Below, one piece after another: positions 1-15,795 of a stretch of DNA of 26,252 nt. The stretch is from a virus. Below the pieces are notes generated by a model. That model saw nothing but the letters and a program-made list of their open reading frames with translations. It was not told where the DNA came from and made no database searches. Location of the stretch: positions 1-26,252 of the IMG/VR virus record IMGVR_UViG_3300027286_000010, one strand, 5' to 3'. Position numbers and translations under genes: made by a program. Positions within the stretch are counted from its first letter, which is position 1. Each line of letters begins with the position of its first letter.

Positions 1-620
1 CTGTGGGGGGTGGTCGGTTATCAAGGATGCCTAGAGTGTAGGGACTCTGGATTATCAAGGTTGCCTACATTGAGCGGTGATCGCACCGTTCGCTCCATGT
101 GAGATTGTTCTTTACCGACTAGCGCCAAAACTACGGGGATGGCGTGTGCGGATACCTACGGGTTGATGCGGTCGCATGGTAAGGGGCTTTTGATGGAAAC
201 CCGTTCATTAAAAATTTATATTGGAATCTCCCATGGTGGCGCATGGGATGGGTGCGAAATAGTCGAGGACACCCTGACGCATTGAATTGATGCGGGCTAG
301 GCTCTATTGTGTGAGCAAGCGGTACGGCGGTACATGAGTTACGGGAATTAGCTTGGGGGCAGAAGTGCCTTAGCGAAAATCGTATGTTGATTGTGACCTA
401 CCCGGAAAGCGTACACAAATAACCTAGACCACCGTGATTCTTACGCAACCCGATATGGCGGTGCAAGACCGTATGTTGGAGAAAGGCCCACTGAAAATGA
501 GCAATACAGTGGCGAGTAACTATCACTCTAAGGGTATGTTGAGGTATCCATACGCACCAAGAACAGAAAGCGTAGCGCCCACATTGTGGGCTTCAGTGTG
601 TAGTCAACCGACTATACATC
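1..620 (+). ncRNA. Candidate large structured noncoding RNA
   Basis: No ORF here has a convincing start or protein character, but local stems occur throughout. Examples: 31-37 with 44-50 (7 bp); 75-79 with 84-88, extended by 72-74 with 93-95; 230-235 with 242-247 (6 bp); 278-283 with 289-294; 358-361 with 366-369 (GAAG loop, inside an outer stem 351-353/372-374); 430-434 with 459-463; 488-493 with 507-512; 534-538 with 549-553; 577-582 with 586-591; and 597-605 with 610-618 (9 bp, AACC loop). Giant phage RNAs such as GOLLD and ROOL have this size, location and ornate hairpin-rich look, but I cannot assign a family from memory. The 5' end may lie outside the window. Strand is inferred from the downstream plus-strand gene. 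Confidence 0.5.
514..533 (+). other. Hairpin resembling 23S rRNA helix 69 plus CUAAGG
   Basis: The stretch GAGTAACTATCACTCTAAGG folds as a GAG/CTC stem with a 9-nt loop UAACUAUCA, followed by CUAAGG. From memory, the E. coli 23S helix 69 loop is UAACUAUAA and is also followed, after its closing stem, by CUAAGG. The loop differs at one position. A second hairpin follows at 534-553. Whether this is mimicry, distant relationship or chance cannot be decided by eye. Confidence 0.4.
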
Positions 621-647
621 CAAGCCTATTCAACTCAAGGAAATATC

Positions 648-1142
648 ATGCAAGTCGCACAATTCACTCCCGCAATGGTCAACGTGTTCGGCAAAACCAA
701 GACTGAACGTCAACTGTCTGTAGTCCAAGACGCCTCACCCTACACCAAGATGGCGCTCGCCAATGCCAAGGGCAAAATGGGTCAAGCCGCCCGCAATGGT
801 ATCGCCAACGGTGGTGTTCAAGCAATTGCCAAGCAAGCCGCTTTCCCATCATGCAACTACAAACCCGCTGGCGAGTACTTTGCCGCCCAATTGGGTGAGC
901 CAATTGTTATCTCCAATCGTGCTGGCTTCGAGTCTTTGCCTGACCAATTCGAGGCTCGCATCATGAAGGCCAAGCTGTCCAAGAATGGCGGCTATGTCAC
1001 CGACAAAAAGACTGGCGCACTCAAAGCAGGTGCAACACTGGCCAAGTTGATGGAACTCAAGGCAGTCGCCACTGAGATGGTCGCATCTGCCAAGGAATTC
1101 ACGGCTGATGCCAAGGCACAGCAAGCCGCAATCGCCGCTTAA
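648..1142 (+). CDS. Hypothetical protein, Ala/Lys-rich (164 aa)
   Basis: The start ATG is preceded by AAGGAAATATC, a good ribosome binding site. The protein is basic and alanine-rich. The C-terminal third (about residues 110-164) is rich in Ala, Lys and Glu and probably helical; the N-terminal half contains a Lys/Gly/Ala segment (KMALANAKGKMGQAARNGIA). I see no catalytic motif, signal peptide or membrane segment and do not recognise the family. It is isolated, between the structured noncoding region upstream and the repeat-rich gap downstream, and its stop codon nearly touches the first copy of the 14-bp palindrome. A role in binding nucleic acid at one of these elements is possible but is only inference from position and charge. 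Confidence 0.85.
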   Translation: MQVAQFTPAMVNVFGKTKTERQLSVVQDASPYTKMALANAKGKMGQAARNGIANGGVQAIAKQAAFPSCNYKPAGEYFAAQLGEPIVISNRAGFESLPDQFEARIMKAKLSKNGGYVTDKKTGALKAGATLAKLMELKAVATEMVASAKEFTADAKAQQAAIAA

Positions 1143-1191
1143 TGTGTGTATACACACGTCATCCCATGCAAGGTGTGTATACACACCTTGC

Positions 1192-1406
1192 AATTATCCA
1201 ACTATCCAAGGCAGCTTTTGGCTTGGATAATTAGGTTTCTCTTTAAAATCAATGGGTTAGACGTGCAATTAGACAATTAGACAATTATCCAAGATTTTAG
1301 GATGCACATGACGATGCGTGTGTCTGTTCGTGCATGAAGCGCCAAGCGCCACACAATCATGACGACCCCTAAAATTCCTGACCCCCTTTTTCCACCTTGG
1401 ATAATT
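1192..1406. repeat. TTGGATAATT repeats, both orientations
   Basis: The decamer TTGGATAATT occurs at 1223-1232 and 1397-1406, and its complement AATTATCCAA at 1192-1201 and 1283-1292. Partial copies lie at 1203-1210 and 1516-1523. The pair around 1203-1229 forms a perfect 8-bp inverted repeat. Confidence 0.85.
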
Positions 1407-1505
1407 CGACTAGGGTAAACCCTTAGTACACCCCGCAAGCCCAGTGTTTATGCGGGTTTCAAGCCATCGCCTAATTAGACAAGCCCCATAAATTTTGTCT
1501 AATTA
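1267..1505. repeat. AATTAGAC repeats, tandem and inverted
   Basis: AATTAGAC occurs in tandem at 1267-1274 and 1275-1282, directly followed by AATTATCC, so an 8-bp unit is repeated about three times in phase. Another copy lies at 1473-1480 and an inverted copy at 1497-1504. The last two are part of a perfect 11-bp inverted repeat (1472-1482/1495-1505). Confidence 0.8.
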
Positions 1506-1598
1506 CCCCCTCAATCTTGGATAGGTGTGTATACACACCTCATGGCCTAGCGCATCCAACACACCAAACGTGTGTATACACACATCATGGAGACCACT

Positions 1599-1769
1599 AT
1601 GTCCCGACACTATTTCATCATCGAGTCCACTGAACGTGTGTATACACACGTAGACGAGCCAACAGATGAGCCGTTCATTTTCGAGGCAACCATGGACACC
1701 AATCCCTTAGACATGGACGACCCCGAGTTCGCATACCGAGAATACTTGGCCGAGCGCTTTGCACGATAA
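1599..1769 (+). CDS. Small acidic hypothetical protein (56 aa)
   Basis: The chosen ATG has GGAG six bases upstream. An upstream in-frame GTG at 1572 lies inside a palindrome copy and is unlikely. The protein is acidic, with many Asp and Glu residues and an aromatic C-terminus (FAYREYLAERFAR). A palindrome copy at 1636-1649 lies inside the gene and encodes VYTH, so the repeat was accommodated within coding sequence. No family is recognised. Confidence 0.65.
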   Translation: MSRHYFIIESTERVYTHVDEPTDEPFIFEATMDTNPLDMDDPEFAYREYLAERFAR

Positions 1770-1799
1770 CGTGTGTATACACACATACAAGGACACATC

Positions 1800-1883
1800 A
1801 TGGACGTCATCGACCTGCTCATCATCCTGTACGTAGCGGCTGGCATCGCTGGCTGGGTGTACGTAGCAACCTCAAGGAAATAA
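1800..1883 (+). CDS. Single-pass membrane micropeptide (27 aa)
   Basis: The ORF begins at ATG 1800, preceded by ACAAGGACACATC. Almost the whole peptide is hydrophobic (LLIILYVAAGIAGWVYVA), ending in a short basic tail (TSRK), consistent with one transmembrane helix with the basic end in the cytoplasm. A palindrome copy lies 16 bases upstream of the start. The next gene starts two bases after the stop. Function is unknown. Confidence 0.55.
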   Translation: MDVIDLLIILYVAAGIAGWVYVATSRK

Positions 1884-1885
1884 AC

Positions 1886-2077
1886 ATGGCACCACTCACC
1901 ATTCGCATCGAACTGCGCGACCAATACGGCAAGCAAGTTGCACATCCAGTGTGCGACACGGCCAAGACCTTTGCAGACATTGCTGGCACTAAGGTGCTGA
2001 CAGACATGACCCTCCTACGCATCGCAGGACTTGGGTACACGATCATTACCACCCAACGAGAATGGAGAAAGCCATGA
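1886..2077 (+). CDS. Hypothetical protein (63 aa)
   Basis: The start ATG is preceded by AAGGAAATAAAC. The protein has alternating hydrophobic residues near the N-terminus (LTIRIELRDQYG) and mixed secondary structure after that, with no membrane segment and no recognised motif. Its stop overlaps a possible 25-residue ORF at 2074. It belongs to the run of very small early genes after the repeat region. Confidence 0.7.
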   Translation: MAPLTIRIELRDQYGKQVAHPVCDTAKTFADIAGTKVLTDMTLLRIAGLGYTIITTQREWRKP

Positions 2078-2151
2078 ACCTACTGACCAAGATATTTGCA
2101 CGACCACTACGCCCATGCCCAAGAGCAACTACATCCTCATCACCGACATGA
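2074..2151 (+). CDS. Possible very short peptide (25 aa)
   Basis: An ATG at 2074 overlaps the previous stop codon (ATGA) and follows AATGGAGAAAGCC, a usable ribosome binding site. The product would be basic and rich in Arg, Pro and Ser. Support is only the start context and the overlap style of neighbouring genes. Confidence 0.3.
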   Translation: MNLLTKIFARPLRPCPRATTSSSPT

Positions 2152-2194
2152 CCCTGCTCAAGGGTCTCAACTCATCACACAAAGGAGGACTCCG

Positions 2195-2320
2195 ATGACC
2201 AAACACACATCCCATGGCTCAGTGCCATCCGTATGGCAGGACGACGGCTTCGGCACACTGCACCGCATCAACTTTCAGCAACTCATTGCCCGAATCGAAT
2301 CGGGATGGAGGGAACTATGA
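2195..2320 (+). CDS. Hypothetical small protein (41 aa)
   Basis: The ATG is preceded by a strong AAAGGAGG at good spacing, which fixes this start over longer in-frame extensions. The peptide ends in a helix-like segment (FQQLIARIESGWREL). Its stop overlaps the next start as ATGA, suggesting translational coupling. No family is recognised. Confidence 0.6.
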   Translation: MTKHTSHGSVPSVWQDDGFGTLHRINFQQLIARIESGWREL

Positions 2321-2406
2321 TTACCCATCGAGCCGCACGAATCGCCGTGCTGGTATTCCTCATCGGTGTCCTGCTCATGGACTTACTGGTATGGAGGCCC
2401 GGATGA
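2317..2406 (+). CDS. Single-pass membrane peptide (29 aa)
   Basis: The start ATG overlaps the previous stop (ATGA) and follows GGAGGGAACT. After a short basic N-terminus (MITHRAARIA) there is a hydrophobic stretch (VLVFLIGVLLMDLLVW) fitting one transmembrane helix. The stop overlaps the next start at 2403. This is the second membrane micropeptide in this cluster. Confidence 0.55.
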   Translation: MITHRAARIAVLVFLIGVLLMDLLVWRPG

Positions 2407-2642
2407 GATGGGATGACTCATTCACAGGTGGCCACGAATGCTACAAGTGGTATGACCTGCTTGCTGGCGAGGGCACAGACACAGACGAACTGCTGGGTTA
2501 CGTCAGAGAGAACTTGGTAGACCGCACGTTCATCGCACAAATCAATGACCGAATGCAACCGACTGCAAAGTTCAGCAACCTAGAGGACGCCAAGAATCAT
2601 GTCATTGCCTACTACGTAGTGCAGAAACTGGAGGGCGCATGA
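2403..2642 (+). CDS. Hypothetical protein (79 aa), small repeated domain family
   Basis: ATG 2403 has GGAGG five bases upstream and overlaps the previous stop; ATG 2391 is a less likely start. The C-terminal half (FIAQINDR, then KFSNLEDAKNHVIAYYV) has the same outline as C-terminal parts of the genes at 2639, 4025 and perhaps 7194: an aromatic residue and a short beta-strand, a variable loop, then a helix with an Ala/Val pattern. I suspect one small alpha/beta domain family of unknown function. Confidence 0.7.
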   Translation: MRWDDSFTGGHECYKWYDLLAGEGTDTDELLGYVRENLVDRTFIAQINDRMQPTAKFSNLEDAKNHVIAYYVVQKLEGA

Positions 2643-2911
2643 GATTCATATGGGAAAACGGCGAGGTATACCTGCGATGCACCATCACACCCAAGGTACG
2701 CATCAAGACACGAGAGTGGGGAGGTACGCCCAACCCATACTGGGTCGATGCCGTTGGGTATATCAAGGTCCATGCAGACTCGTATGAGGCCAACATCTAC
2801 GGCACTGTGTCACCCGTGGCACCTAAGCTATTCGCTCACTTGGAGCAAGCCAAGGCATACGTAGAGGAGCAATCCCTCATTGGCCTTGCAGTAAACAAAC
2901 TGACCATGTAA
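2639..2911 (+). CDS. Hypothetical protein (90 aa), small repeated domain family
   Basis: The start overlaps the previous stop (ATGA) after CTGGAGGGCGC. The N-terminal half is strand-rich and aromatic (FIWENGEVYLRCTI). The segment YEANIYGTV, followed by LFAHLEQAKAYVEE, matches the layout seen in the genes at 2403 and 4025. It could be a phage accessory domain that copies itself around the early region. No catalytic motif is visible. Confidence 0.7.
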   Translation: MRFIWENGEVYLRCTITPKVRIKTREWGGTPNPYWVDAVGYIKVHADSYEANIYGTVSPVAPKLFAHLEQAKAYVEEQSLIGLAVNKLTM

Positions 2912-2958
2912 GCACCACGACAGCTTACAGCCACACAATCACGTACACATTCAGGCTA

Positions 2959-2986
2959 CCCTGACGTTCATGCGTCACGCTCAGGG
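2959..2986 (+). promoter_or_regulatory. Leader inverted repeats before the ATPase gene
   Basis: The 118-bp gap 2912-3029 holds CCCTGA (2959-2964) paired with TCAGGG (2981-2986) and, mutually exclusive with part of it, TGACG (2962-2966) paired with CGTCA (2973-2977). No T-run follows, so it is not an intrinsic terminator. I see no good promoter in the gap. The leader could be structured in the mRNA. Confidence 0.35.
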
Positions 2987-3029
2987 GCAGGCATCCAGAC
3001 GCACACATCCTCAACACATAGGAATCATC

Positions 3030-4028
3030 ATGCGATACAGCAACATCAAAACATCCGTGCTCTCTCAGTTCAGCGTAGACGGTGGCAACGCCGTTGTCCC
3101 CTTCATCCTCGGTGCGCCGGGCGGTGGCAAGTCAGCCTGTGCTCGTGACGTCGTCAACTCGTTAGGCATCGAGAACGTGGTCGAGTTCACTGCGTCCCTG
3201 CGTGACCCTGTTGACGTGCTCGGTGTGCCTGACAACACTGGCGAGTACACACGCTGGGTTCCACCCCAAGAGTTCTACCAACTGCGCCAAGGTGTCGGTC
3301 GGTCAGCACTCATTCTAGAGGAACTGTCGGACGCACCTGTCCCCATGCAGAACGCACTGTGCGGTGTTATCTACGACCGTCGTGCTGGCAACCTCAAGCT
3401 GTCTGACGAGTTGTTCATCATCGCAACGGGGAACAGGACAGAGGATAAATCCGGTGCCAACCGCATCACATCCAAGCTGGCCAATCGTACACGACGCTTC
3501 GACTTCCAAGAGAACATCGACGACTGGACTGAGTGGGCGCTCGACAATGACATTGACCCTGTGTTGATTCAGTTCCTGCGCTTCCGTCCCGGTCTGCTGT
3601 CTGACTTCGATGCCAATCGCTTCGCCAACCCTACGCCTCGTGCATGGGAGCGTGTCAACCTCATCCCTGACAGCCTTGACTCTGGCCTGTTCTTCGACAA
3701 CTGCGCTGGTGAGGTAGGCGAGGGCGCTGCTGCTGAGTTCACTGGCTTCCGTCGCATCTACATGTCGCTGCCTGACGTCGACTCCATCCTGCTCGACCCT
3801 GCTGGCGCTGACGTGCCGCAAGACCCTGCGACTCTGTACGCACTGACCGGTGCTCTGGCTCGTAAGTCCACCAAGGACAACTTCGACCGTGTATCCAAGT
3901 ACCTGTCACGTATGTCCCCTGAGTTCAACGTCATGGCGACCAAGGACGCGATCAAGCTGCAGCCTAGCATCAGGCACAGCCGTGCCTTCGTCGAGTGGGC
4001 CAGCAAGAACGCAGAAGTCCTGATGTGA
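3030..4028 (+). CDS. MoxR/CobS-like AAA+ ATPase (332 aa)
   Basis: This is a AAA+ ATPase of the MoxR/CobS-like type. Walker A is GAPGGGKS (residues 28-35), Walker B is LILEEL (94-99) with two acidic residues, sensor 1 is ATGN (Asn135), and an arginine-rich segment ANRTRRF follows at 151-157. MoxR proteins use ATP to remodel partner complexes together with VWA-domain proteins; the gene at 5977 encodes such a partner. I chose ATG 3030, with AGGA seven bases before it, over ATG 2970, whose extra 20 residues are low-complexity and lie over the leader inverted repeat. The substrate is unknown. Metal-chelatase-like activity is possible by analogy with CobS but nothing here shows cobalamin synthesis. 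Confidence 0.9.
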   Translation: MRYSNIKTSVLSQFSVDGGNAVVPFILGAPGGGKSACARDVVNSLGIENVVEFTASLRDPVDVLGVPDNTGEYTRWVPPQEFYQLRQGVGRSALILEELSDAPVPMQNALCGVIYDRRAGNLKLSDELFIIATGNRTEDKSGANRITSKLANRTRRFDFQENIDDWTEWALDNDIDPVLIQFLRFRPGLLSDFDANRFANPTPRAWERVNLIPDSLDSGLFFDNCAGEVGEGAAAEFTGFRRIYMSLPDVDSILLDPAGADVPQDPATLYALTGALARKSTKDNFDRVSKYLSRMSPEFNVMATKDAIKLQPSIRHSRAFVEWASKNAEVLM

Positions 4029-4330
4029 ACTACAGCCGCGTGTACACCAACTACCGCTGGGAGCCGGTCAATGTCCGCAAGGGCGACCGGTACCACTACA
4101 AGCGCGACGTGATGTGGCCAGACACGCCATGGCGAACGGTTGAACCACAAGTCATCGCCACTGTCATCTACGACGACAAACACACGTCGCCGCACTGGGG
4201 CAAGTGGCGTGCCAACATCCATCCGCTTAGCCCTGCGCTCAACGACCTGCGCCTGTCTGACATACCCAAGTTCAGCAGCAAGGACGACGCGATGGCTTGG
4301 GTCACAGCAATGGTGAGGCTAAGCGTATAA
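4025..4330 (+). CDS. Hypothetical protein (about 101 aa), small repeated domain family
   Basis: GTG 4025 overlaps the ATPase stop codon and is the best start by position. An in-frame GTG at 3995 is longer and neither has a strong ribosome binding site. The protein is rich in Trp and Tyr. Its C-terminal half (WRANIHPLSP, then KFSSKDDAMAWVTAMV) resembles the genes at 2403 and 2639. It lies inside the ATPase-VWA module but its role there is unknown. Confidence 0.65.
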   Translation: MNYSRVYTNYRWEPVNVRKGDRYHYKRDVMWPDTPWRTVEPQVIATVIYDDKHTSPHWGKWRANIHPLSPALNDLRLSDIPKFSSKDDAMAWVTAMVRLSV

Positions 4331-4364
4331 AGATCACCAAACACATTTAACACAAGGAGTAAAC

Positions 4365-5237
4365 ATGACACACACCAAACTATCTGACAAGGCAGTCCTC
4401 GTCAAGCTGACACTTCGACGTGCAGCACTCACCAAGCGCGACCATGGACTTACAGCAACCTTACAACAGCAGGAGAATGACACCAGCCTCACTGTGCTGA
4501 CCAAGTTGTTCAAGAACAAGGACTCAGCCATCAACCAAATCATGGCCAAGTACGGCGAGGTATACGCCTACCACAAGAAGCACACGCTGCCTTACGTTGA
4601 CGCTGGCCCACGCATCCTGCCGAACGACATGTACATGGAGTACACACAGGAGATGAAGCACCGCATCGCTCAGGTGGACAACCTGCTCGACACTTACATG
4701 CCAATGTATGACCAGCTAGTGACTGATGACGTCATGTACCGCAACTCTGGCCATGCAGCAGGACGGGCCAACGCTTCCGAGTACCCCAGTGCAGAGCAGT
4801 TCAGGACTTCCATGTCAGCCGAGCTCAGGTTCCAGCCCATGGCAGATGCGACACACTTCCTGTTCGACCTGTCGGATGATGACTTGGCAGCGTTCAAACG
4901 TGCCGAGGAAGAAGCCTCAGCCGCTGTCAACGTGGACACCATACAGCGCATGCTCAAGCCCATCGCATCGCTTGTGACCAAGCTCGCCGAGTATCAAGGT
5001 GCCAAGGGTGAGCGCTTCCACAACAGCCTCATCGACAACGTCATCGACGGATGCAAGCTGGCACGCAAGCTGGCGATCAACCCCACGCAAGAGTTGCTTG
5101 ACGAAATCACTTCACTGGAGGAATCAGCACAGGGTTACTTGGCAGACGTCGAGATGATTAAGGGTTCACCTAACAAGCGTAGTGAAGCCAAGCGCAAGCT
5201 GGAGGAAGTAGCTGCACGCATGGGAGCGTTCGCATGA
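4365..5237 (+). CDS. Helical protein, possibly DUF3150-like (290 aa)
   Basis: A clear AAGGAG precedes the start. The protein is almost entirely helix-forming and charged. It has no enzyme motif or membrane segment, and has likely coiled-coil stretches near the N-terminus (KLTLRRAALTKRDHG) and at the C-terminus (RSEAKRKLEEVAARMG). A helical protein of about 300 residues next to a CobS/MoxR-like ATPase and a VWA protein matches the arrangement I know from SXT/R391-type elements, where the middle gene is DUF3150. I infer that relationship mainly from context and overall character. It may be an adaptor or structural partner of the ATPase-VWA complex. Its stop overlaps the next start as ATGA. Confidence 0.7.
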   Translation: MTHTKLSDKAVLVKLTLRRAALTKRDHGLTATLQQQENDTSLTVLTKLFKNKDSAINQIMAKYGEVYAYHKKHTLPYVDAGPRILPNDMYMEYTQEMKHRIAQVDNLLDTYMPMYDQLVTDDVMYRNSGHAAGRANASEYPSAEQFRTSMSAELRFQPMADATHFLFDLSDDDLAAFKRAEEEASAAVNVDTIQRMLKPIASLVTKLAEYQGAKGERFHNSLIDNVIDGCKLARKLAINPTQELLDEITSLEESAQGYLADVEMIKGSPNKRSEAKRKLEEVAARMGAFA

Positions 5238-5431
5238 CCTTCACTGAACTCGAGTACGTGCTGATGCTCGCAGTGGCTGTACTGCTGTGGCGTAGCGCAG
5301 TCATGAGGACATGGGCGCAGAGCGAGGAGTATCGCGCTAACAAGTACGCCCGTTGGATGGAGGATGTGTACAAAAAGAAAGGGAAGATTGTGCAACGAGA
5401 TGATGGATATTACTTCGAGGAGATCAAATGA
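5234..5431 (+). CDS. Small membrane-anchored protein (65 aa)
   Basis: The start overlaps the upstream stop (ATGA). Residues about 6-20 (LEYVLMLAVAVLLWR) form one probable transmembrane helix, followed by a charged, Lys/Tyr-rich cytoplasmic-type tail. It lies between the large helical protein and the VWA-like protein, so it could anchor that module to the membrane, but this is inferred from position only. Confidence 0.65.
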   Translation: MTFTELEYVLMLAVAVLLWRSAVMRTWAQSEEYRANKYARWMEDVYKKKGKIVQRDDGYYFEEIK

Positions 5432-5967
5432 GAAAGCCAATTGGAAATAACGAACGTGGGCGTATCACTGGTATGCCCGGTACAAAGACAACTGTGACGC
5501 TGTACCCACAGACACTAGGTGTAAGGATGCGTAACAGCATCATTCGCATGATTGAGAACCGCACCATCGAAGGCGGCTGGGCTTCCAAGTCACGCCAGAT
5601 AGCACAGTCTCTGTCCGAGACGCATGGGCTTCAGATAGGTATCAACAACTGGAATGGTATTCGTATCATAGGTATGTCATCCGAGGTAGCACCCCGTGTG
5701 CGCGAAGCTGTTGTAGCGGACTGGACTGCATGGCTATTGGAGCAACCGACTTACCGCAATGGATACTACAGGAGTCTGCACGACGGTGCGTTGGAGTACA
5801 TAGACAACCTTGACCAGAACTTCTACGTAACCATGCACGACAAAGTCTCAATCCGTAAGGTTATAGAAATCTTGGCGGAGCAAACTCCGCAGAAGTTGAA
5901 AGACAAATCGAAGCAAGTAGCCGACATGCTCAGAGGCACTGAGCCAATACACATCATCACTTTCTAA
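5428..5967 (+). CDS. Hypothetical protein (179 aa)
   Basis: The start overlaps the previous stop (ATGA) and follows GAGGAGATCAA. The protein is soluble with mixed helices and strands. Basic residues cluster in the first 65 positions (GTKTTVTLYPQTLGVRMRN; WASKSRQIAQSL). The middle is Trp/Tyr-rich, and the C-terminus has a helical Lys-rich part (KLKDKSKQVADML). No family is recognised. It directly precedes the VWA-like gene by nine bases and is probably co-translated with it. Confidence 0.75.
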   Translation: MRKPIGNNERGRITGMPGTKTTVTLYPQTLGVRMRNSIIRMIENRTIEGGWASKSRQIAQSLSETHGLQIGINNWNGIRIIGMSSEVAPRVREAVVADWTAWLLEQPTYRNGYYRSLHDGALEYIDNLDQNFYVTMHDKVSIRKVIEILAEQTPQKLKDKSKQVADMLRGTEPIHIITF

Positions 5968-5976
5968 GGAGTAATC

Positions 5977-7083
5977 ATGGCAGTTACCACACTCGACCGG
6001 GCCAAGGTGTCCATCGTGACACAGCATCCCTTCTTTGCATCCATCCTCATGAAGCGCAAGCTAATCGAGGACAACACAATCCCCACTGCTGCTGTCGACC
6101 AGCGTGGCCAGATTTACTACAACAAGTCATTCGTTGAGAAGCTGTCTGTTGACGAGCTTGTGTTCTTGCTGTGCCATGAGGTTGGCCATGTCATCGGTCA
6201 GCATGCACTGCGCCGTGGTGCTCGCAACGCCAAGAAGTGGAACATCGCTGGTGACGCATGGATTAACGACATGCTCAAGGACGCTGGCATCGGCCATCAA
6301 ATCGAGGGCTGTGTCAATATGCCCGGCTCCAAAGACGAGACAGTCGACGTCATCTACAACAAGCTGCCCGACCAACCTGACGGTCACGGCCCCGGCGGTA
6401 CTGGTGACGACTTGATTGAGCGTGGCTCACCACTCACTACAGAGGAGGCTGACCGCATCGACGCTGAGACTCGCGTAGAGATTGCCCAAGCTGCCCAAGC
6501 TGCCAAGGCTCAGGGCAAGATGCCCGGTGCTCTGGCCAAGATCGTTGCTGACCTCATCGACGTACGCACACCATGGCACGACATTCTCGAGCGCTACATG
6601 ACCACCTTCACCCGTGGTGACTATACATGGTCGCGTCCTAACCGCCGCTTCGTTGACTGCTACCTTCCATCGACCGGCAAGTCCCCTGAGATGGGCGAGG
6701 TTGTCATCCAAGTTGACGTGTCAGGTTCTATCTCCAAGTCCGAGCTCGACCACTACAACGGCCACTTACAGCGCATCGTGTCTATGTGCAACCCCACCCG
6801 TGTTCATGTCTTGTATGTCGACACTTCGGTAGCCAAGCACGAGGTGTTCGAGCAGGGCGAGGAGGTGGCGCTCACGTTCTACTGTGGCGGCGGCACTGAC
6901 ATGGAAGAGGGCTTCAACTACATCGCCAAGGAAGGTATCAAGCCCGAGGTGTTCGTGTGCCTGACCGACGGTTACACAGACTTCAACACAGCCAACGAGC
7001 CAGAGTATCCAGTCGTCTGGTGTATCTCTAGTGACATCAAAGCCCCTTACGGCGACAATATCCACTTTACCTTGGAGCAATGA
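5977..7083 (+). CDS. VWA-like protein with metallopeptidase-like N-terminus (368 aa)
   Basis: TAAGGAGTAATC precedes the start. The N-terminal domain carries HEVGH (67-71), the zinc-binding HExxH of metallopeptidases, with further His residues at 76 and 107. The C-terminal domain has a MIDAS-type metal site DVSGS (247-251), GGGTD (304-308) and LTDG (329-332), as in von Willebrand factor A domains. A proline/glycine-rich linker (about 131-145) and a helical Ala-rich segment (165-190) separate them. This architecture matches the putative metallopeptidase plus VWA-like (DUF2201-type) family. Such proteins typically pair with MoxR-like ATPases, here the gene at 3030. Peptidase activity is not proven. 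Confidence 0.85.
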   Translation: MAVTTLDRAKVSIVTQHPFFASILMKRKLIEDNTIPTAAVDQRGQIYYNKSFVEKLSVDELVFLLCHEVGHVIGQHALRRGARNAKKWNIAGDAWINDMLKDAGIGHQIEGCVNMPGSKDETVDVIYNKLPDQPDGHGPGGTGDDLIERGSPLTTEEADRIDAETRVEIAQAAQAAKAQGKMPGALAKIVADLIDVRTPWHDILERYMTTFTRGDYTWSRPNRRFVDCYLPSTGKSPEMGEVVIQVDVSGSISKSELDHYNGHLQRIVSMCNPTRVHVLYVDTSVAKHEVFEQGEEVALTFYCGGGTDMEEGFNYIAKEGIKPEVFVCLTDGYTDFNTANEPEYPVVWCISSDIKAPYGDNIHFTLEQ

Positions 7084-7084
7084 A

Positions 7085-7249
7085 ATGGCAACATCAATCG
7101 ACAACGCAATCGACAATCTGACTAAGCAATACGACGCTGTTCTACGTGCATGCTACGAAGCACTGGCAGCTGACGTACCACAGGCAACACGTGATGCTCT
7201 CCGAGAATCAATCTCTGACCACCTCGACTCATCCGATACAGAAGAGTGA
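7085..7249 (+). CDS. Small acidic hypothetical protein (54 aa)
   Basis: The ATG lies two bases after the upstream stop, with TTGGAG at suitable spacing. The protein is helical and acidic (ISDHLDSSDTEE at the end). Its 3' end overlaps the following gene in another frame. No family is recognised. Confidence 0.6.
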   Translation: MATSIDNAIDNLTKQYDAVLRACYEALAADVPQATRDALRESISDHLDSSDTEE

Positions 7250-7436
7250 ACGCTTCCGCGTAGAGCGGAGCAACACCGTTGGCGTGCAGGTAGTGCGCAA
7301 CCAGCAAGGCTGGCACGTCAACGTATCAATTAACAAGGTGCCCCATACACACTATGGGCCCTTCAAAGAACCAATAACGCTCACAGAAGCACTGGTCTAC
7401 GTCTCAACACTAATCAAACTTGAAGAAGGAAACTGA
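7194..7436 (+). CDS. Hypothetical protein (about 80 aa), start uncertain
   Basis: The frame is open from 7146 (GTG) to 7436; ATG 7194 is the only in-frame ATG with reasonable length. All starts overlap the previous gene and none has a clear ribosome binding site. The convincing part is residues from FRVERSNTVG onward: strands (GVQVVRNQQGWHVNVSINK), a loop, and a final helix (LTEALVYVSTLIKL), like the small repeated domain in the genes at 2403, 2639 and 4025, or the later 12774/13082 pair. Confidence 0.5.
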   Translation: MLSENQSLTTSTHPIQKSERFRVERSNTVGVQVVRNQQGWHVNVSINKVPHTHYGPFKEPITLTEALVYVSTLIKLEEGN

Positions 7437-7437
7437 C

Positions 7438-8109
7438 ATGGCAACCGTATACATCACCAAGGAGCTTATCGCTCGCGTTCAGCAAGTCATCGACAAGATG
7501 CGCAGAGCTGAGCGAGCCAGTGACTTACCCAACATAGACAAGAACTACAGCGTCAACGCCAGCCAGCTGTACAACATCGGATGCTGGGGTGCTGCAGATG
7601 TACACCTCAAAGACCTCATCCCGAAAGATTGGATGCAGGAGGTGACCGACGCCGACGTGGCTGTGCGCGGCACACTGGAAGACGGCAGCAACATCAAGAC
7701 CAGCATTCGGTTTAGTGGCATGACCACGGCGTTCCAGCGACCATCCAAGGACTACTGGAACAAGTCAAGTTCAGAGTTCTCGATTGAACAACTACGCGCT
7801 TTACCAGAAGACATGCTTGGCCGTAGAGAGTTGCTCGAGCGCTGGGATGATGCTGTGTTGGAGTTCGCGATCAACGCACGATGGAAGAAAATCAGCAGTG
7901 ACATCTCTGAGTTCCTCAAGAAGTGCAAGTCACTCAACGAGGCAGTCAAGCTCTTCCCCAACGTGACCATGTACATCGACCGCGAAGACATGGAGCGTCT
8001 CAATCGCAAAATCGAGCGTGTATCTCAACGCAAGGCTATCGTTGAGTCATATGACACTGACGGCCTTACAGCAGCAGCAATTGCAGCCAAACTCGCGGAG
8101 GCATCATGA
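7438..8109 (+). CDS. Hypothetical phage protein (223 aa), possibly Nmad5-like
   Basis: GAAGGAAACTGAC precedes ATG 7438; a TTG at 7420 is less likely. The N-terminus starts with a strand and a helix (VYITKELIARVQQVIDKM). The C-terminal segment FLKKCKSLNEAVKLFP followed by an aromatic/Asp stretch recalls the helix-plus-LxxxFP/WP ending of proteins called Nmad5 (putative nucleotide-modification associated). That resemblance is weak and from memory. The tail is Ala-rich (LTAAAIAAKLAEAS). Translationally coupled to the next gene by ATGA. Confidence 0.75.
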   Translation: MATVYITKELIARVQQVIDKMRRAERASDLPNIDKNYSVNASQLYNIGCWGAADVHLKDLIPKDWMQEVTDADVAVRGTLEDGSNIKTSIRFSGMTTAFQRPSKDYWNKSSSEFSIEQLRALPEDMLGRRELLERWDDAVLEFAINARWKKISSDISEFLKKCKSLNEAVKLFPNVTMYIDREDMERLNRKIERVSQRKAIVESYDTDGLTAAAIAAKLAEAS

Positions 8110-8291
8110 AGAAGACATTACCAACCATTCCTGTCGGTCACCCCGACTACAAGTGGACCTCTGGCGCTGACGTACAAGCTACGTGGCGTCGCTTCGGATG
8201 GACACCACCATTCGGCAACAAGTTCGAGCCCATTCCACCAAAGGAACCGGAGGTCGTGCAAGCAACGCGTAAGTATTGGAGAGTCAAATGA
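8106..8291 (+). CDS. Small Pro/Trp-rich protein (61 aa)
   Basis: GGAGGCATC precedes the start, which overlaps the previous stop. The protein is rich in Pro, Trp and Lys with little hydrophobic core. The segment ADVQATWRRFGWTPP is common in small phage proteins of unknown role. Coupled to the next ORF by ATGA. Confidence 0.6.
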   Translation: MKKTLPTIPVGHPDYKWTSGADVQATWRRFGWTPPFGNKFEPIPPKEPEVVQATRKYWRVK

Positions 8292-8383
8292 CGTGGCCTT
8301 TCCCTGCGTTCCCAAATCCCAAAGATAACAACAAGAAGGTTCCTAAGTTCAACCCAGACAACCATGAGGACGCACCACTATGA
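8288..8383 (+). CDS. Very small hypothetical protein (31 aa)
   Basis: ATG 8288 overlaps the previous stop and follows TTGGAGAGTCAA. The peptide is polar and proline-rich (FPAFPNPKDNNKKVPKFNP). Its stop overlaps the next start at 8380. Both boundaries fit the ATGA pattern, which is the main support. Confidence 0.45.
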   Translation: MTWPFPAFPNPKDNNKKVPKFNPDNHEDAPL

Positions 8384-9027
8384 CACCTCTCGATAGATTC
8401 AATGCGCTGACCAAGCGACAGCGCGACGAGGTACTGGACAAGCATCGTCTCTGGAACGTAGAGCACACCGAATGGTGGGGCGTTGTGTATGACGACTTCA
8501 AGCATGACATGAGCGCCATTGGCATTGAGGTAGATCGCATGTACTTCAGCGGCTTCTCATCGCAGGGTGACGGTGCATGCTTCGATGGCCGTGTGTTTTC
8601 ATGGGAGGACTTCCTCAAGTCTATGGGGTATGAAGACCCAGCACTCATAGGTCTGGCTGAACAATCTTGGCTCTTTCGTGTGCAACATCGCGGCCACTAC
8701 TACCACGAGAACTGTACGACGTTCTACTCTGACATGGCGAGCCCTGATGACTACAGCGAATCAGAGATGGATGAGTTCGTGTACGCCCACAGCCCCTACA
8801 ACACAGACATTCAGAACGCAGCGTTCGTGGCTATCTTGCAGGGATATGACTACGGCTCGTTGGAAGACGAGTTCACCGAAGCCTTCAAGGGTCACATGCG
8901 TGACCTGTACAGCCGACTCGAGATCGAGTACGACGACCTTACATCTGACGAGTCCGTGTTGGCCTCATTAGATGCCAACGACATGCTTACCGAAATCATT
9001 GACGAACTGGAGAACGAATATGCCTGA
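8380..9027 (+). CDS. Phage SQGDGA-motif protein (215 aa)
   Basis: The protein contains WWGVVYDDFKHDMSAIGIEV followed by FSGFSSQGDGACFDG (about residues 57-71), the hallmark of a common phage and plasmid family sometimes labelled antitoxin of a toxin-antitoxin stability system. That label is not experimentally grounded as far as I know. The protein is very acidic, especially the C-terminal 60 residues (DDLTSDESV; ELENEYA), raising the possibility of DNA mimicry. The usual N-terminal half of the family is present. No toxin gene is adjacent. Start overlaps the previous stop by ATGA. Confidence 0.8.
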   Translation: MTPLDRFNALTKRQRDEVLDKHRLWNVEHTEWWGVVYDDFKHDMSAIGIEVDRMYFSGFSSQGDGACFDGRVFSWEDFLKSMGYEDPALIGLAEQSWLFRVQHRGHYYHENCTTFYSDMASPDDYSESEMDEFVYAHSPYNTDIQNAAFVAILQGYDYGSLEDEFTEAFKGHMRDLYSRLEIEYDDLTSDESVLASLDANDMLTEIIDELENEYA

Positions 9028-9487
9028 CTTGAAATCTGAACTGAAGAAACTCGAAGCCCTGCGATTTGATGACGAGGGCACAACCACACAGGAAGTAGCC
9101 ATGCAAGAACCACAGAGCCTAGGTGTATCCGAGACTGTCTTCAACGTCATCAGAGATAACCCCGGATGCAATCGAAATAGACTCATTGCCTTGGCTGATA
9201 CTGCTGGTGTGTCTAAGAGTTCATCATCGTCGCTGCTCAATCAGTTTCTAAAGCGTGGGCTCGTCCGTACTGTGGACTCCGCTGGCGGGATGACGTACTT
9301 TGCCATTGGTCATAAATACGTGCGAGGGTACATAAAGCAGAACAAGAAAGCTGCTAAAGTTGCGATCCCGAAAGCTGCCAAGCCAGCACCACAACAAGAC
9401 TCAAGCGTGCAAGACTTACTCAACACCATGTCCATCGTCAAGGCCCGTGCGCTGTACGATGAGCTCAAGAAAATCTTTGGCGGCTAA
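9020..9487 (+). CDS. Winged-helix DNA-binding protein, MarR-like (155 aa)
   Basis: ATG 9020 has GGAGA seven bases upstream; a longer in-frame start at 8972 would overlap the previous gene by 56 bases. Residues about 36-100 fit a winged helix: VFNVIRDNPGCNRNRLIALA, a recognition helix rich in Ser (SKSSSSSLLNQFLKRGLV), and a wing (TVDSAGGMTYFAIG). A Lys/Ala/Pro linker follows and a short C-terminal helix. It is a plausible phage transcription regulator, and a candidate ligand for the palindromes at 1144-1784, though nothing links them directly. Confidence 0.7.
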   Translation: MPDLKSELKKLEALRFDDEGTTTQEVAMQEPQSLGVSETVFNVIRDNPGCNRNRLIALADTAGVSKSSSSSLLNQFLKRGLVRTVDSAGGMTYFAIGHKYVRGYIKQNKKAAKVAIPKAAKPAPQQDSSVQDLLNTMSIVKARALYDELKKIFGG

Positions 9488-9488
9488 T

Positions 9489-9791
9489 ATGTACTTGCGA
9501 TCAATCGAGAACCCAGTACACACTTCGGGGCACATTGTTGACTATGTGCTCTTGCAAAAAGCGTTCGACGACATGAACCGTAACTTCAACGAGATTAGTA
9601 TGACTTCGCACAGTCAAGCTATACGCAACGCTGAGCTTCAGACTATCAACAAGCACCTCATGCAACTCCTCAATTGGATTGCAACAACCAATCCACAAAT
9701 CCTCGATGAATTCCAGACCACCGCGACTGCCTTCGACAAACTCATTCCGAGAGACGACGGAGCAGGCGCTTACGCGAGCCCACAGGCTTAA
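9489..9791 (+). CDS. Hypothetical helical protein (100 aa)
   Basis: ATG 9489 follows the previous stop by one base; the Shine-Dalgarno is weak (TTGGCGG). Residues 18-75 are mainly helical with many Asn and Gln (LLQKAFDDMNRNFNEISM; NKHLMQLLNWIATTN). No motif or membrane segment is seen. Its 3' end overlaps a possible zinc-ribbon protein in another frame. Confidence 0.6.
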   Translation: MYLRSIENPVHTSGHIVDYVLLQKAFDDMNRNFNEISMTSHSQAIRNAELQTINKHLMQLLNWIATTNPQILDEFQTTATAFDKLIPRDDGAGAYASPQA

Positions 9792-9897
9792 GAAATGCGA
9801 CACGTGCGGCAAAAACTCAGAACCCTTGAGCGGCGTAGAGATGCGCAGCAAGTGGTATTGCGCAAGATGCTGGACCAGCTACGCCAACAGAAAGTGA
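9706..9897 (+). CDS. Possible zinc-ribbon protein, start uncertain
   Basis: The C-terminal 35 residues have CDTCG and CARC separated by about 20 residues, a convincing four-cysteine zinc ribbon, and end in SYANRK. The only ATGs in frame (9679, 9706) overlap the previous gene by more than 80 bases and give an Arg/Pro/Ser-rich N-terminus. The real start may be a rare codon closer to LTRAHRLKKC. The ribbon frame itself is well supported. Confidence 0.5.
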   Translation: MNSRPPRLPSTNSFRETTEQALTRAHRLKKCDTCGKNSEPLSGVEMRSKWYCARCWTSYANRK

Positions 9898-9900
9898 CTC

Positions 9901-10374
9901 ATGCGCAAGCGTAGCAAGTACAAACCAAAACACGTACTACTTAATCCCGTGGGATTTGTGCTGGAGAGCATATCCCCAGTCAACAGCCACACAGCGTTCA
10001 TGCTTGACCTCAAGATCAAGAACCATGGCGCGTTGGAGACACTGACCAAGGGCAAAGCCAAGCATGCTGACATTGACGTACTTATCTCTATGGTGAACAT
10101 GACTGAGGCGTTTGCGCGTCTCGGCTTCGGCAAAGACTACAGCGACGTTGTTCGTGATGGCTTGCAAGCCCTGCGTGATGTAGGTAAGCGCGGAGCAGTC
10201 TCGGGTAGCTTTGTCCTTAAGGCCCATGAGATGAACGCACTGAACACCGTGATGGAGTTGCACGATGCACAGATGGACGTCGTGACCCTCAAAGATATGG
10301 ACGCAGCCATTGCCCTCGTGCGTGAGGAGTACAGGCTCAAGAAGATGACACCTATATTGGAGAAACAGAAATGA
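9901..10374 (+). CDS. Conserved phage hypothetical protein (157 aa)
   Basis: It starts MRKRSKYKPKHVLLNPVGFV, an N-terminus I recognise from conserved small proteins in phages of Burkholderiales-like hosts, function unknown. The rest is helical. A middle segment (KGKAKHADIDVLISMVNMTEAFARLGFG) and a long helix toward the C-terminus (AHEMNALNTVMELHDAQM) are visible. No enzyme motif. The basic N-terminus suggests nucleic-acid contact. Stop overlaps the next start (ATGA). Confidence 0.8.
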   Translation: MRKRSKYKPKHVLLNPVGFVLESISPVNSHTAFMLDLKIKNHGALETLTKGKAKHADIDVLISMVNMTEAFARLGFGKDYSDVVRDGLQALRDVGKRGAVSGSFVLKAHEMNALNTVMELHDAQMDVVTLKDMDAAIALVREEYRLKKMTPILEKQK

Positions 10375-10748
10375 CCAAGATATGCGATGAATGCGAGACA
10401 GTGTCCCACTGCTCAGAACATGGCTGCATCCCGAAGCAGCAAGCCCTCGACAAGAAGGCACATAACGCCAGAGAGTTGGGGCTGGACTATGAGCCAGCAC
10501 AGCAGGAGCCTGTTGGTACATACCAAGAAATCATGCGAACAATGATTGCGCTTAGGACGGGCACAGTCGTGCAGCAACAGGCATATGAACTCATGAAAGA
10601 CAAGCAACTCTACACATCCCCACCAGCACAGCGCACATGGGTTGGGCTGACGGAAGAGGAGATTATTAGATGCACCCCAACTTGGGGAGGAACGGTAGAA
10701 GATGTTGCCATCGCCATCGAAGCCAAACTCAAGGAGAAGAACACATGA
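10371..10748 (+). CDS. Cys-rich N-terminus plus repeated C-terminal domain (125 aa)
   Basis: GGAGAAACAGAA precedes the start, which overlaps the previous stop. The N-terminus has CDEC, CSEHGC with His (CDECETVSHCSEHGC), a possible metal site. The C-terminal 35 residues (RTWVGLTEEEI through AIEAKLKEKNT) recur almost unchanged in the gene at 11127 and are common in phage hypothetical proteins. The C-terminus is coded by a nearly identical DNA repeat in the two genes. Function unknown. Confidence 0.75.
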   Translation: MTKICDECETVSHCSEHGCIPKQQALDKKAHNARELGLDYEPAQQEPVGTYQEIMRTMIALRTGTVVQQQAYELMKDKQLYTSPPAQRTWVGLTEEEIIRCTPTWGGTVEDVAIAIEAKLKEKNT

Positions 10749-10972
10749 CTAAACTAACGCCCGTGGCAATCACTGACCACCACAAAGAACAAGCCGCAGC
10801 GATCTTGCACGAGGCACTAGACGAGAACCCTGACACGGTGATTGTGCTGTGCTTTTGGAAAGACCGAGGGCAGTTCAAGATCAAGACGTCCACCATCCCT
10901 GACCGGCTCATGCTTATCGGGGCGCTGGAAGAAGCCAAGAACAAAATCATCACGGACGGGTACGCAGCATGA
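10745..10972 (+). CDS. Hypothetical protein (75 aa)
   Basis: CAAGGAGAAGAACAC precedes ATG 10745, inside the 38-bp repeat. The protein has a helix with His (DHHKEQAAAILHEALDE), a strand (TVIVLCFWK), a short strand (QFKIKTS) and a final helix (LMLIGALEEAKNKII), a small alpha/beta fold. No family named. Stop overlaps the next start at 10969. Confidence 0.7.
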   Translation: MTKLTPVAITDHHKEQAAAILHEALDENPDTVIVLCFWKDRGQFKIKTSTIPDRLMLIGALEEAKNKIITDGYAA

Positions 10973-11130
10973 GCGCAAAACGAGAATATCTATGGGCTGT
11001 TTTTAAAACAACACCGCAGAGCCCCAAACTAGTAGAAGCTGCGCTGATTTTTTACCACGCAGAAGTGCCTGTTGAGCAAGCGCGAGAGTATCTGGCAACG
11101 CTTGCTACCAAAATTAAGGAGACCGCATGA
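10969..11130 (+). CDS. Small hypothetical protein (53 aa)
   Basis: ATG 10969 overlaps the previous stop (ATGA), with no strong ribosome binding site, suggesting reinitiation. The peptide is basic and helical (EYLWAVFKTTPQSPKLVEAA). Its stop overlaps the next start at 11127. Support comes from both ATGA junctions. Confidence 0.5.
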   Translation: MSAKREYLWAVFKTTPQSPKLVEAALIFYHAEVPVEQAREYLATLATKIKETA

Positions 11131-11387
11131 CAGCAGAACAAGAAAAAGCCCTGCGAGATTATTTGCAAGAGTCGATTGTCCCGTTGATTGAACAGGTGCT
11201 TGTTAAGAAGTTGGGGCAAGCAATGTCGTTTGCGGCAGAGCAACTCGTGCAACCAAAACGCACATGGGTTGGGCTGACGGACAAAGAAATTGATGACGTT
11301 TTGGGTAGCGACATTCAAGACGAACCAAGCGGATTGTTAGAGTTTGTCCGCGCCATCGAAGCCAAACTCAAGGAGAAGAACACATGA
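11127..11387 (+). CDS. Hypothetical protein with repeated C-terminal domain (86 aa)
   Basis: AAGGAGACCGC precedes the start. The N-terminal 40 residues are helical (EQEKALRDYLQESIVPLIEQ); the C-terminal part (RTWVGLTDKEI to AIEAKLKEKNT) is the same module as in the gene at 10371, preserved at the DNA level. The N-terminal halves are unrelated, so the C-terminal module was shuffled onto two different fronts. Confidence 0.75.
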   Translation: MTAEQEKALRDYLQESIVPLIEQVLVKKLGQAMSFAAEQLVQPKRTWVGLTDKEIDDVLGSDIQDEPSGLLEFVRAIEAKLKEKNT

Positions 11388-11593
11388 CCAAAGAAGACAT
11401 CATTCAAATTGCGCGTGAGGCTGGCATACGCGATTGCACCTGCAACGGAACGCTTGGATGCCTTGAACGCTTTGCCGAGCTTATCCGTGCTGACGAGCGT
11501 GAGGCGTGTGCAAAGGTGTGTGATGCGTGGCAAGAATGGGGCGCAGATGGTGCGCTACTTGCCAAAGCCATCCGAGCAAGGAGCAACACATGA
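11384..11593 (+). CDS. Conserved small phage protein (69 aa)
   Basis: AAGGAGAAGAACAC precedes the start. The pattern MTKEDIIQIAREAG, then LERFAELIRADEREACAKVC and a final AIRARS, is a frequent small phage family in beta- and gammaproteobacterial phages, of unknown function. Four Cys residues (two in CTCNG, one each later) could bind metal, but spacing is not a classic zinc site. Stop overlaps the next start (ATGA). Confidence 0.75.
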   Translation: MTKEDIIQIAREAGIRDCTCNGTLGCLERFAELIRADEREACAKVCDAWQEWGADGALLAKAIRARSNT

Positions 11594-11700
11594 GAGAACT
11601 AGACCCCGATACGTGGCTGATGCTGGGCATCACATGGGTCCACGGACTGCTGTGTGGCTATGCCATATGGCGTGAAGACAAACGAAAGGAGGACGAATGA
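11590..11700 (+). CDS. Small membrane protein (36 aa)
   Basis: CAAGGAGCAACAC precedes ATG 11590, which overlaps the previous stop. The segment WLMLGITWVHGLLCGYAIW is hydrophobic enough for one transmembrane helix, flanked by an acidic N-terminus and a charged tail (REDKRKEDE). Stop overlaps the next start at 11697. Confidence 0.55.
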   Translation: MRELDPDTWLMLGITWVHGLLCGYAIWREDKRKEDE

Positions 11701-11762
11701 AAATCGCATGGACTTTCATCATTGTGATGCTGACACTGCTGACCATAAGGAGTTGTGTATGA
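11697..11762 (+). CDS. Membrane micropeptide (21 aa)
   Basis: AAAGGAGGACGA precedes ATG 11697 and the start overlaps the previous stop (ATGA). The peptide is one hydrophobic helix after MKIAW (FIIVMLTLLTI) ending in RSCV; with its Lys and terminal Cys it could also resemble a lipoprotein-like leader, but there is no cleavage site with downstream sequence. Its stop overlaps the next start. Confidence 0.45.
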   Translation: MKIAWTFIIVMLTLLTIRSCV

Positions 11763-12100
11763 ACATCGTGCAGATGGTGACGGTATTCAAAACCCTGATG
11801 CAAGGGCCAGCCAGCCGACTTGATCTGTCAGAGCGCACTGGAGTGCCGCCGAAGACTGTGGGCAAGCTGCTTACCGAACTCAAGGCTCAGAAGATGATCT
11901 ACGTCATCGACTACACCAACGAATCTGATGGCCGCAACCGGGTCAAGCTGTACACGTTCGGTGACGGCGAGGACGCACAGCCCAAGAGCTCACAGCCGCA
12001 GGAAGTGCGTAGCCGCAGGAGCTACGCTAAAAAGGTGCGGGCTATAAAAGATGCAAAGATCAAGACAACATTCGTAGGAGGTGTGTCGCTATGGCAATGA
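11759..12100 (+). CDS. Winged-helix DNA-binding protein (113 aa)
   Basis: AAGGAGTTGT precedes ATG 11759. Residues 1-60 form a helix-turn-helix: MVTVFKTLMQGPASRLDLSE, then a recognition helix (VPPKTVGKLLTELKAQKM), then a wing (IYVIDY... RVKLYTFG). The C-terminal 40 residues are strongly basic (RSRRSYAKKVRAIKDAKIK), which would add nonspecific DNA contact. It is likely a phage transcription or replication accessory factor; the ligand site is unknown. Confidence 0.7.
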   Translation: MNIVQMVTVFKTLMQGPASRLDLSERTGVPPKTVGKLLTELKAQKMIYVIDYTNESDGRNRVKLYTFGDGEDAQPKSSQPQEVRSRRSYAKKVRAIKDAKIKTTFVGGVSLWQ

Positions 12101-12306
12101 CCGACTGCAAACTTACGCACGACCGCTTTGCTGTGGTCGATGTCAACAACCACTGGCGTGATGCCAAAGAGTATCCGCCACCACGGAGTGCAAAGATGCT
12201 CATGATCGACAAGAAGCTGGGCGTTGCAGTCCTTGGCTCGTGGAGAGATGCCGATGGCTGGACACACTGGGCACCACTGCCTACGTTCAAGCGAGACGAT
12301 GTATGA
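12091..12306 (+). CDS. DUF551-like small protein (71 aa)
   Basis: TAGGAGGTGTGTCGCT precedes ATG 12091; the gene overlaps the previous one by ten bases. The pattern HWRDAKEYPPPRSAKMLMID, then VAVLGSWRDADGWTHWAPLP, matches the DUF551 outline ending in HWxPLP, common in phages and prophages. Function of the family is unknown to me. Confidence 0.7.
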   Translation: MAMTDCKLTHDRFAVVDVNNHWRDAKEYPPPRSAKMLMIDKKLGVAVLGSWRDADGWTHWAPLPTFKRDDV

Positions 12307-12572
12307 GTGAATCTGCCCGCAGACGAGTTATGCACACGCATGCCATCCGGGCGCTGTTGCTGGCGACTGACGATGGCCTTACTACTGGTGAGCTGGCCAA
12401 GTCGCTTGGCGTAACCTCGTCATATGTGAACGGCATTCTCACAGATACGTACGGCTTTTACATCGACAGATATGCCACGTTACCCAGTAAAACTCTCGCA
12501 CCTGTGTGGGCGTGCGTAGTGGTTCCACCTAATTGCCCCCGACCAACCCAAAAGGAGAAAGACGATGAGTAA
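12303..12572 (+). CDS. Helix-turn-helix protein (89 aa)
   Basis: ATG 12303 overlaps the previous stop. Residues about 14-50 read as a helix-turn-helix: AIRALLLATDDGLTTGELAK followed by SLGVTSSYVNGILTDTYGFY. The remainder is Pro/Cys-rich and ends in basic and acidic residues (PTQKEKDDE). It is the third small DNA-binding-type protein in this region. The ligand is unknown. Confidence 0.6.
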   Translation: MSESARRRVMHTHAIRALLLATDDGLTTGELAKSLGVTSSYVNGILTDTYGFYIDRYATLPSKTLAPVWACVVVPPNCPRPTQKEKDDE

Positions 12573-12789
12573 CGCACTAGACGTGCAAGTTGACGGCAGT
12601 CACTACAAGGACATGGCCATTCAACCAGCAGAGTTTATACACGCCAACAACATTGGCTACATGGAGGGCAACGTCATCAAGTACGTGTCCAGATGGAAAA
12701 AGAAGAACGGCATCAAAGACTTGGAGAAAGCCAAGCACTACGTCGAACTACTAATTGAATTGGAGATTCGCGCATGCTCAAAGAACTGA
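12565..12789 (+). CDS. DUF3310 family protein (74 aa)
   Basis: AAAGGAGAAAGACG precedes ATG 12565. The protein has the DUF3310 signature nearly end to end: HYKDMAIQPAEFIHANNIGY, then EGNVIKYVSRWKKKNGIKDL, then EKAKHYVELLIELE. The family is widespread in phages, of about this length, and sometimes labelled nucleotide kinase without good evidence. Overlaps the next gene by 16 bases. Confidence 0.9.
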   Translation: MSNALDVQVDGSHYKDMAIQPAEFIHANNIGYMEGNVIKYVSRWKKKNGIKDLEKAKHYVELLIELEIRACSKN

Positions 12790-13082
12790 TGCACGCCATG
12801 ATTGGCCACAGCGCACAAAACGCAGCGCAAGGTGTACTGACCACCTCTGGCTTGGGTGCGTCCATGCAGAATTCAATCCTCGGGCACTCAGTCCAAGCTA
12901 GGCTAACCCGGAGCAAAAAAATCTTCAGTGGCAACATTGAAGTGCAGCAAGTGGCCAACGGCTATGTAGTCAACATCGGCACCAAGGAAGGCTACGAGTA
13001 CGAGACGCACATCGCGCAGACAATTACTGAAGTCAACGAGATCATTGCAGCAGCGATGGTCGCATTCCAACTGGAGAAATAA
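12774..13082 (+). CDS. Hypothetical protein (102 aa), paralogous to next gene
   Basis: TTGGAGATTCGC precedes ATG 12774. A polar Ala/Gln/Ser-rich N-terminus is followed by strands (NIEVQQVANGYVVNIGTKEG) and a final helix (ITEVNEIIAAAMVAFQLEK). The next gene has the same layout from the strand segment onward (IRATNGYIIKAS ... ALEK), so I read them as diverged tandem paralogs. Similar small proteins occur in T4-like and other phages; function unknown. Confidence 0.7.
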   Translation: MLKELMHAMIGHSAQNAAQGVLTTSGLGASMQNSILGHSVQARLTRSKKIFSGNIEVQQVANGYVVNIGTKEGYEYETHIAQTITEVNEIIAAAMVAFQLEK

Positions 13083-15746: not shown

Positions 15747-15749
15747 TTG

Positions 15750-15777
15750 TTGACAGCACTCACCATGCTGCTACGAT
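15750..15777 (+). promoter_or_regulatory. Probable sigma70-type promoter
   Basis: TTGACA (15750-15755) is a perfect -35 element; TACGAT (15772-15777) is a reasonable -10 with a 16-bp spacer. It lies in the only sizeable gap between the polymerase and the nuclease gene and would transcribe the downstream nuclease, helicase and SSB-like genes. Confidence 0.65.
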
Positions 15778-15795
15778 ATAGTTTCAGAACACAAA

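Follow-up and report, generated by a model that had tools for sequence, protein, structure and literature searches.

HK022 put RNAs, ~70 nt long with two hairpins, are cis antitermination leaders, as is the EAR element, and GOLLD forms a 14-mer nanocage. Few phage RNAs of the size and complexity of the one described here are known, and their functions are open. GOLLD and ROOL are phage or prophage RNAs, often found near tRNAs (PMC12286853). The RNA analysed here, ahead of a phage operon in a 26,252-nt stretch of viral DNA (IMG/VR record IMGVR_UViG_3300027286_000010; the window), resembles GOLLD (RF02032) as a large, multi-domain, pseudoknotted phage RNA with unequally conserved regions, and ROOL as a large, complex phage RNA with pseudoknots and a function that is unknown (PMC12286853). 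Unlike GOLLD, it lacks a covariance model match at E ≤ 10, has no tRNA nearby, lies upstream of the first early gene, and is conserved at both ends and swapped in the middle; unlike ROOL, it has no Rfam match and lies outside any tRNA island. With the HK022 put RNAs and the EAR element it would share the character of a structured cis leader heading a phage or long operon, although it is about ten times larger than the put RNAs and is likened to them by description, not by sequence.

Searches with Rfam 15 at gathering and permissive thresholds gave no match in the leader. A cmscan of window positions 1–1700 and eight loci at E ≤ 5, and of five more loci at E ≤ 1, returned no GOLLD, ROOL, OLE, HEARO or raiA, and a direct GOLLD search was empty at E ≤ 10 in all 12 records; the Rfam matches seen in the relatives' records belong to different loci or lie beyond the homologous leaders. 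Neither a tRNA nor a tmRNA was found in the 26-kb window, so that the locus shares the phage location of GOLLD but not its frequent proximity to tRNAs. The first-pass annotation had offered the GOLLD/ROOL class or a new class. The large phage RNA, possibly of a new class, stands; membership of GOLLD, ROOL, OLE or HEARO is not supported, none of them being found by cmscan in the window or in 13 relatives, and the GOLLD/ROOL label is unsupported because Rfam 15 gave no match and GOLLD was excluded in 12 records. We found no description of this RNA in the open-access literature. The large-RNA class appears new, being absent from the Rfam library searched; its function is putative.

The region shows no sign of coding. 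Each of the six frames of positions 1–647 contains 7–12 stop codons, 43 of the 56 indels between relatives in this region are not multiples of 3, and no reading frame is conserved, in agreement with the first-pass annotation, which had seen no convincing gene. The GC skew of the region, +0.21, is the highest among all 500-base bins of the contig. Conserved sequence in relatives, comprising a G-rich tract and a presumed promoter, runs ~75 nt beyond window position 1, and the 5′ end of the RNA therefore lies outside the window, as had been suspected. The 3′ end falls at ~618–622, 26–30 nt ahead of the ATG at 648. The features, all on the + strand, are as follows.

1–622, +: large structured RNA (leader), 5′ end upstream of the window; homologous region in relatives, covariation.
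1–12, +: 3′ end of the conserved G-rich tract (ggcggggtggggg..ttggggggCCTGTGGGGGGTG in relatives); 43-sequence alignment.
16–69, +: twin motif, two copies of GnUAUCAAGGnUGCC around the hairpin 31–37/44–50; identity covariation, pairing in helices 3–4.
72–91, +: hairpin GAGCGGTG/CACCGTTC (helix 5), 100% paired in six relatives with compensatory changes.
170–274, +: domain with a conserved CATTAAAAATTTATATTGGAATC strand (helices 11–15), module switch point at ~272.
279–447, +: central long-range domain of extended irregular helices (16–23), closed by 279–280/446–447.
450–479, +: hairpin with a loop around GCAAGAC (helix 24), 98.6% paired.
488–512, +: P_a hairpin CCACTG/CAGTGG, helix 1 of the 3′ domain (28-relative alignment).
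514–540, +: H-type pseudoknot, 514–517 with 525–528 and 518–524 with 533–540 (one bulge); covariation.
551–574, +: P_d stem TACGC/GCGTA with conserved loop ACCAAGAACAGAAA, helix 4 of the 3′ domain; a pair at E = 0.03.
577–591, +: P_e hairpin GCCCAC/GTGGGC, a terminator-like stem without a U-run; from sequence.
597–618, +: P_f hairpin of 9 bp, final helix ahead of the gene; from sequence.
637–641, +: ribosome-binding site AAGGA of the first early gene; from sequence, conserved in leaders.
648–1142, +: first early gene, 164 aa; open reading frame without a Pfam or PHROG match.

Relatives were first gathered with the 164-aa protein as query, giving 23 IMG/VR loci, nearly all of which carry a homologous noncoding region upstream, and the set was widened by scanning for the pattern of the best-conserved 3′ motif and by a search with the neighbouring terminase. 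The TerL lineage comprises roughly 128 contigs, of which 80 were retrieved. The conserved 5′ domain was present in 44 of the 45 terminase loci having at least 1.9 kb upstream, the remaining one giving a weak match. The location of the RNA is constant, between the first early gene and divergent terminase genes, which lie on the opposite strand on its other side. Leader length, from the start of the 5′ domain to the start codon, ranges from 379 to 694 nt. The leaders are mosaic, some relatives aligning to the window only up to ~272 and others only after ~146; owing to this exchange of modules, a single full-length alignment of all relatives was unreliable.

Folding and covariation were assessed on several sets. 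The minimum free energy of the region stands at z = −3.77 against dinucleotide shuffles, none of 20 being equally good, and over 29 leaders the mean z is −2.1 on the + strand versus −0.86 on the reverse complement; G-U cells number 21 versus 10 A-C cells. The RNA signal favours the + strand. For six full-length relatives, 69–82% identical to the window, the RNAalifold consensus comprises 164 pairs, and these are 94.6% paired as compared with 35–39% when partners are slid, a percentage that is favoured because the structure was drawn from the alignment on which it was scored. Compensatory changes occur in 54 of the 164 pairs, about 22 of them in the helices of the central domain, and the count of compensatory cells, 91 versus 29.5 in shuffles, is not accounted for by the shared alignment alone.

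The 3′ domain, which combines a hairpin, an H-type pseudoknot and a stem with a conserved 14-nt loop (core ACCAAGAACAG), could be followed through 28 diverse relatives. It is 89.4% paired, as compared with 67.4% in shuffles and 27–39% with slid partners, and has 123 compensatory cells versus 37 in shuffles. The two pseudoknot helices, 98% and 94% paired with many compensatory cells, include the top covarying pairs. Under a tree-based null written for this analysis on the model of R-scape, proposed pairs rank first, second, third, fifth and sixth among 12,403 column pairs, three of these at E ≤ 0.03. Compensatory base-pair changes are thus above controls, and the region is a structured, noncoding RNA under selection for pairing. 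Covariation among homologues and a reading frame shared by them were the tests that the first-pass annotation had named; covariation in the stems is strong and no frame is conserved. Its 7-bp stem at 31–50 is present as 31–37/44–50 and its 9-bp stem at 597–618 as 597–605/610–618 (TGTGTAGTC/GACTATACA). The structured noncoding region that it observed is real, and was understated: folding, covariation and constant position bear out a phage RNA that is large and structured and lies in front of a phage operon.

At the 5′ end of the RNA the two ~16-nt copies of the twin motif flank a hairpin. Their sequence varies among phages (UUAUCAAGG.UGCC, GUAGCGGCC.GACC and others) and their type agrees within a phage: the best column pair between the copies has the same base in both in 42 of 43 leaders, and identity covariation between them reaches E = 0.000 in the 43-sequence alignment. 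The two main types could stem from recombination that replaced the motif as one block; in several minor types the copies match as well. This agreement suggests a common partner or mutual pairing. Positions 16–69 of the window and the 43 relatives together show at least five types, with concerted copies. A self-pairing model for the repeats failed to hold in all sequences.

In every relative 20–50 nt separate the final helix of the RNA from the start codon of the first early gene, and a ribosome-binding site lies in that gap. The RNA lies on the same strand as this gene and directly upstream of it, and no intrinsic terminator was recognised between the two or on the + strand as far as ~19 kb. 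Promoter scans revealed no consensus promoter, and no consensus sigma-70 promoter was detected upstream in locus L007. Directly downstream of the RNA lie at least four unrelated-looking protein groups; one of these is phrog_1448, with hypothetical-protein relatives encoded by many autographivirus-like genomes. For the window's own first gene product neither family nor fold could be recognised: Pfam and PHROG gave no match, nor did the PDB for its predicted structure (pLDDT 78). The type of the 3′ domain and that of the first gene are loosely linked.

That the RNA ends so close to the start codon, with no terminator and with four or more gene groups downstream, leads us to read it as a structured 5′ leader; since it always keeps the same place and strand and no terminator follows it, the simplest account is a leader cotranscribed with the gene. 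We see an even chance that positions 1–622 are most of a ~690-nt multi-domain + strand RNA that leads the early operon at its 5′ end and acts in cis. Transcription would start ~50–60 nt upstream of the window, cross the RNA region and continue into the operon; as it is made, the RNA would fold into the twin-motif hairpin, the large central domain and the pseudoknot/loop domain, and would most likely bind, in cis, the RNA polymerase of the host or a protein of phage or host. The outcome could be full transcription of the long early operon (processive antitermination) or timed translation. The antitermination part is a guess, because intrinsic terminators that would call for readthrough are few in the long operon. 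One distant locus (L090) matches the 3′ domain at 40.8 bits and, with its extra features, is probably a relative of the RNA; there a promoter-like sequence with repeated operators immediately precedes the domain and an intrinsic terminator follows it, an arrangement that argues mildly for transcriptional control.

The size and module mosaicism of the RNA exceed what known cis antitermination RNAs need, and a processed trans-acting RNA is a strong rival because known cis elements are far smaller than this one. It would be a free-standing RNA in the manner of GOLLD or ROOL, for example a scaffold for an RNP or a homo-oligomer, with processing or termination near P_e/P_f, and its place ahead of a gene would be incidental. 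We regard this as a real possibility, with the weight of probability nevertheless lying elsewhere. Its size and complexity resemble those of GOLLD and ROOL, it persists while the first gene swaps, P_e resembles a terminator stem (AAGCCC..GGGCUU) in many relatives, and the symmetric twin motif could serve dimerisation; yet P_e lacks a U-run, in every relative P_f, spacer and ribosome-binding site follow directly, and, in contrast to GOLLD and ROOL, no tRNA lies nearby. Most likely the RNA affects early transcription or translation in cis, the processed trans-acting RNA being the main rival.

We consider it unlikely that the RNA is a ColE1-like replication primer, formed through an R-loop at the G-rich tract. 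The tract, of about five G-runs just upstream of the RNA, is kept in nearly all of the 43 leaders (for example L002 2315–2360), and noncoding DNA rich in palindromes follows the first gene, but a primer has no need of an elaborate 3′ fold ending at a ribosome-binding site. The tract is very G-rich and is also a possible G-quadruplex or R-loop site. Still less probable is a metabolite riboswitch or a ribosomal-protein-type autoregulatory leader of the first gene: the RNA is directly upstream of the ribosome-binding site, but the same RNA precedes at least four first-gene groups, and 3′ domain and gene type are loosely linked. Least probable, and already disfavoured, is a DNA-level packaging or origin site with inverted repeats, which would suit a position between terminase and early genes and the palindromic operators on the flanks, but not covariation in pseudoknots and long-range helices, nor the excess of G-U over A-C and the better folding of the + strand than the − strand relative to shuffles.

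Beyond the cis leader, a more speculative reading, which we hold doubtful as a whole, is that a new class of giant phage RNA, assembled from exchangeable modules, leads the early transcript and, as infection begins, commandeers the RNA polymerase of the host (or builds an RNA or RNP assembly); its type-matched twin motif would bind a symmetric partner, a different one from phage to phage. The RNA occupies an unusual place, as leader of an early operon, and is near-universal in its lineage of uncultured phages. An alignment and a covariance model of it are ready. Through this RNA the role of giant phage RNAs becomes testable by a synthetic leader in a laboratory reporter, and the phage is not needed.

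Searches for the lineage elsewhere gave little. A blastn against 50,697 phage records found no match; among GenBank phages TerL found only distant TerL (<60%) and the first gene of the window no match, and hence no cultured phage of the lineage was found. TerL found nothing in GTDB genomes, and a GTDB pattern scan gave 16 matches, about the number expected by chance, of which only a Delftia type was noncoding and phage-like. In 300 genomes from the order to which the Delftia MAG belongs, the covariance model gave three weak matches (two Delftia-type, one chance-like). We do not claim the Delftia-type leaders as homologues, because they share little beyond the search string. These prophage leaders (L088 437–518, L095 12030–12111, L194 456–537 and L203 1501–1582) carry UGAGG..CACCAAGAACAG and have a strong terminator behind. 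Rfam finds Burkholderiales-2 RNA (RF02917) in L088 and L095, on the opposite strand, and the Rfam strand may be wrong; RF02917 is absent from the window family, to which the search string is the only link. Prophage-type leaders at L042 ~4940–5030 and L053 7770–7853, behind operator-bearing promoter-like sequences, have a similar loop motif and are candidate homologues. Leaders before a MEKAQ-type first gene (L126, L130, L132, L135, L138, L139, L147, L165 and L167) differ in their 3′ domain, which forms a pseudoknot of its own (GAGCGCC..GGGCGCT with CCGGG/CCCGG).

The noncoding DNA after the first gene (1142–1570) contains the inverted repeats TTATCCAAG/CTTGGATAA and TTAGACAA/TTGTCTAA, similar in L006, and is origin-like. 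Between 1144 and 1784 the palindrome GTGTGTATACACAC occurs in six exact copies in 640 bp and nowhere else in the window. When one mismatch is tolerated, its 10-base core has seven sites as compared with 0.67 expected. The copies resemble a cluster of operators or stoperators, and in relatives comparable sites lie on the upstream flank of the RNA. The sole strong + strand intrinsic terminator found within 640–20600 is at 20565–20586, and an open reading frame on the − strand (24752–26248), running to the contig end, is similar to a DarB-like antirestriction protein (phrog_10089).
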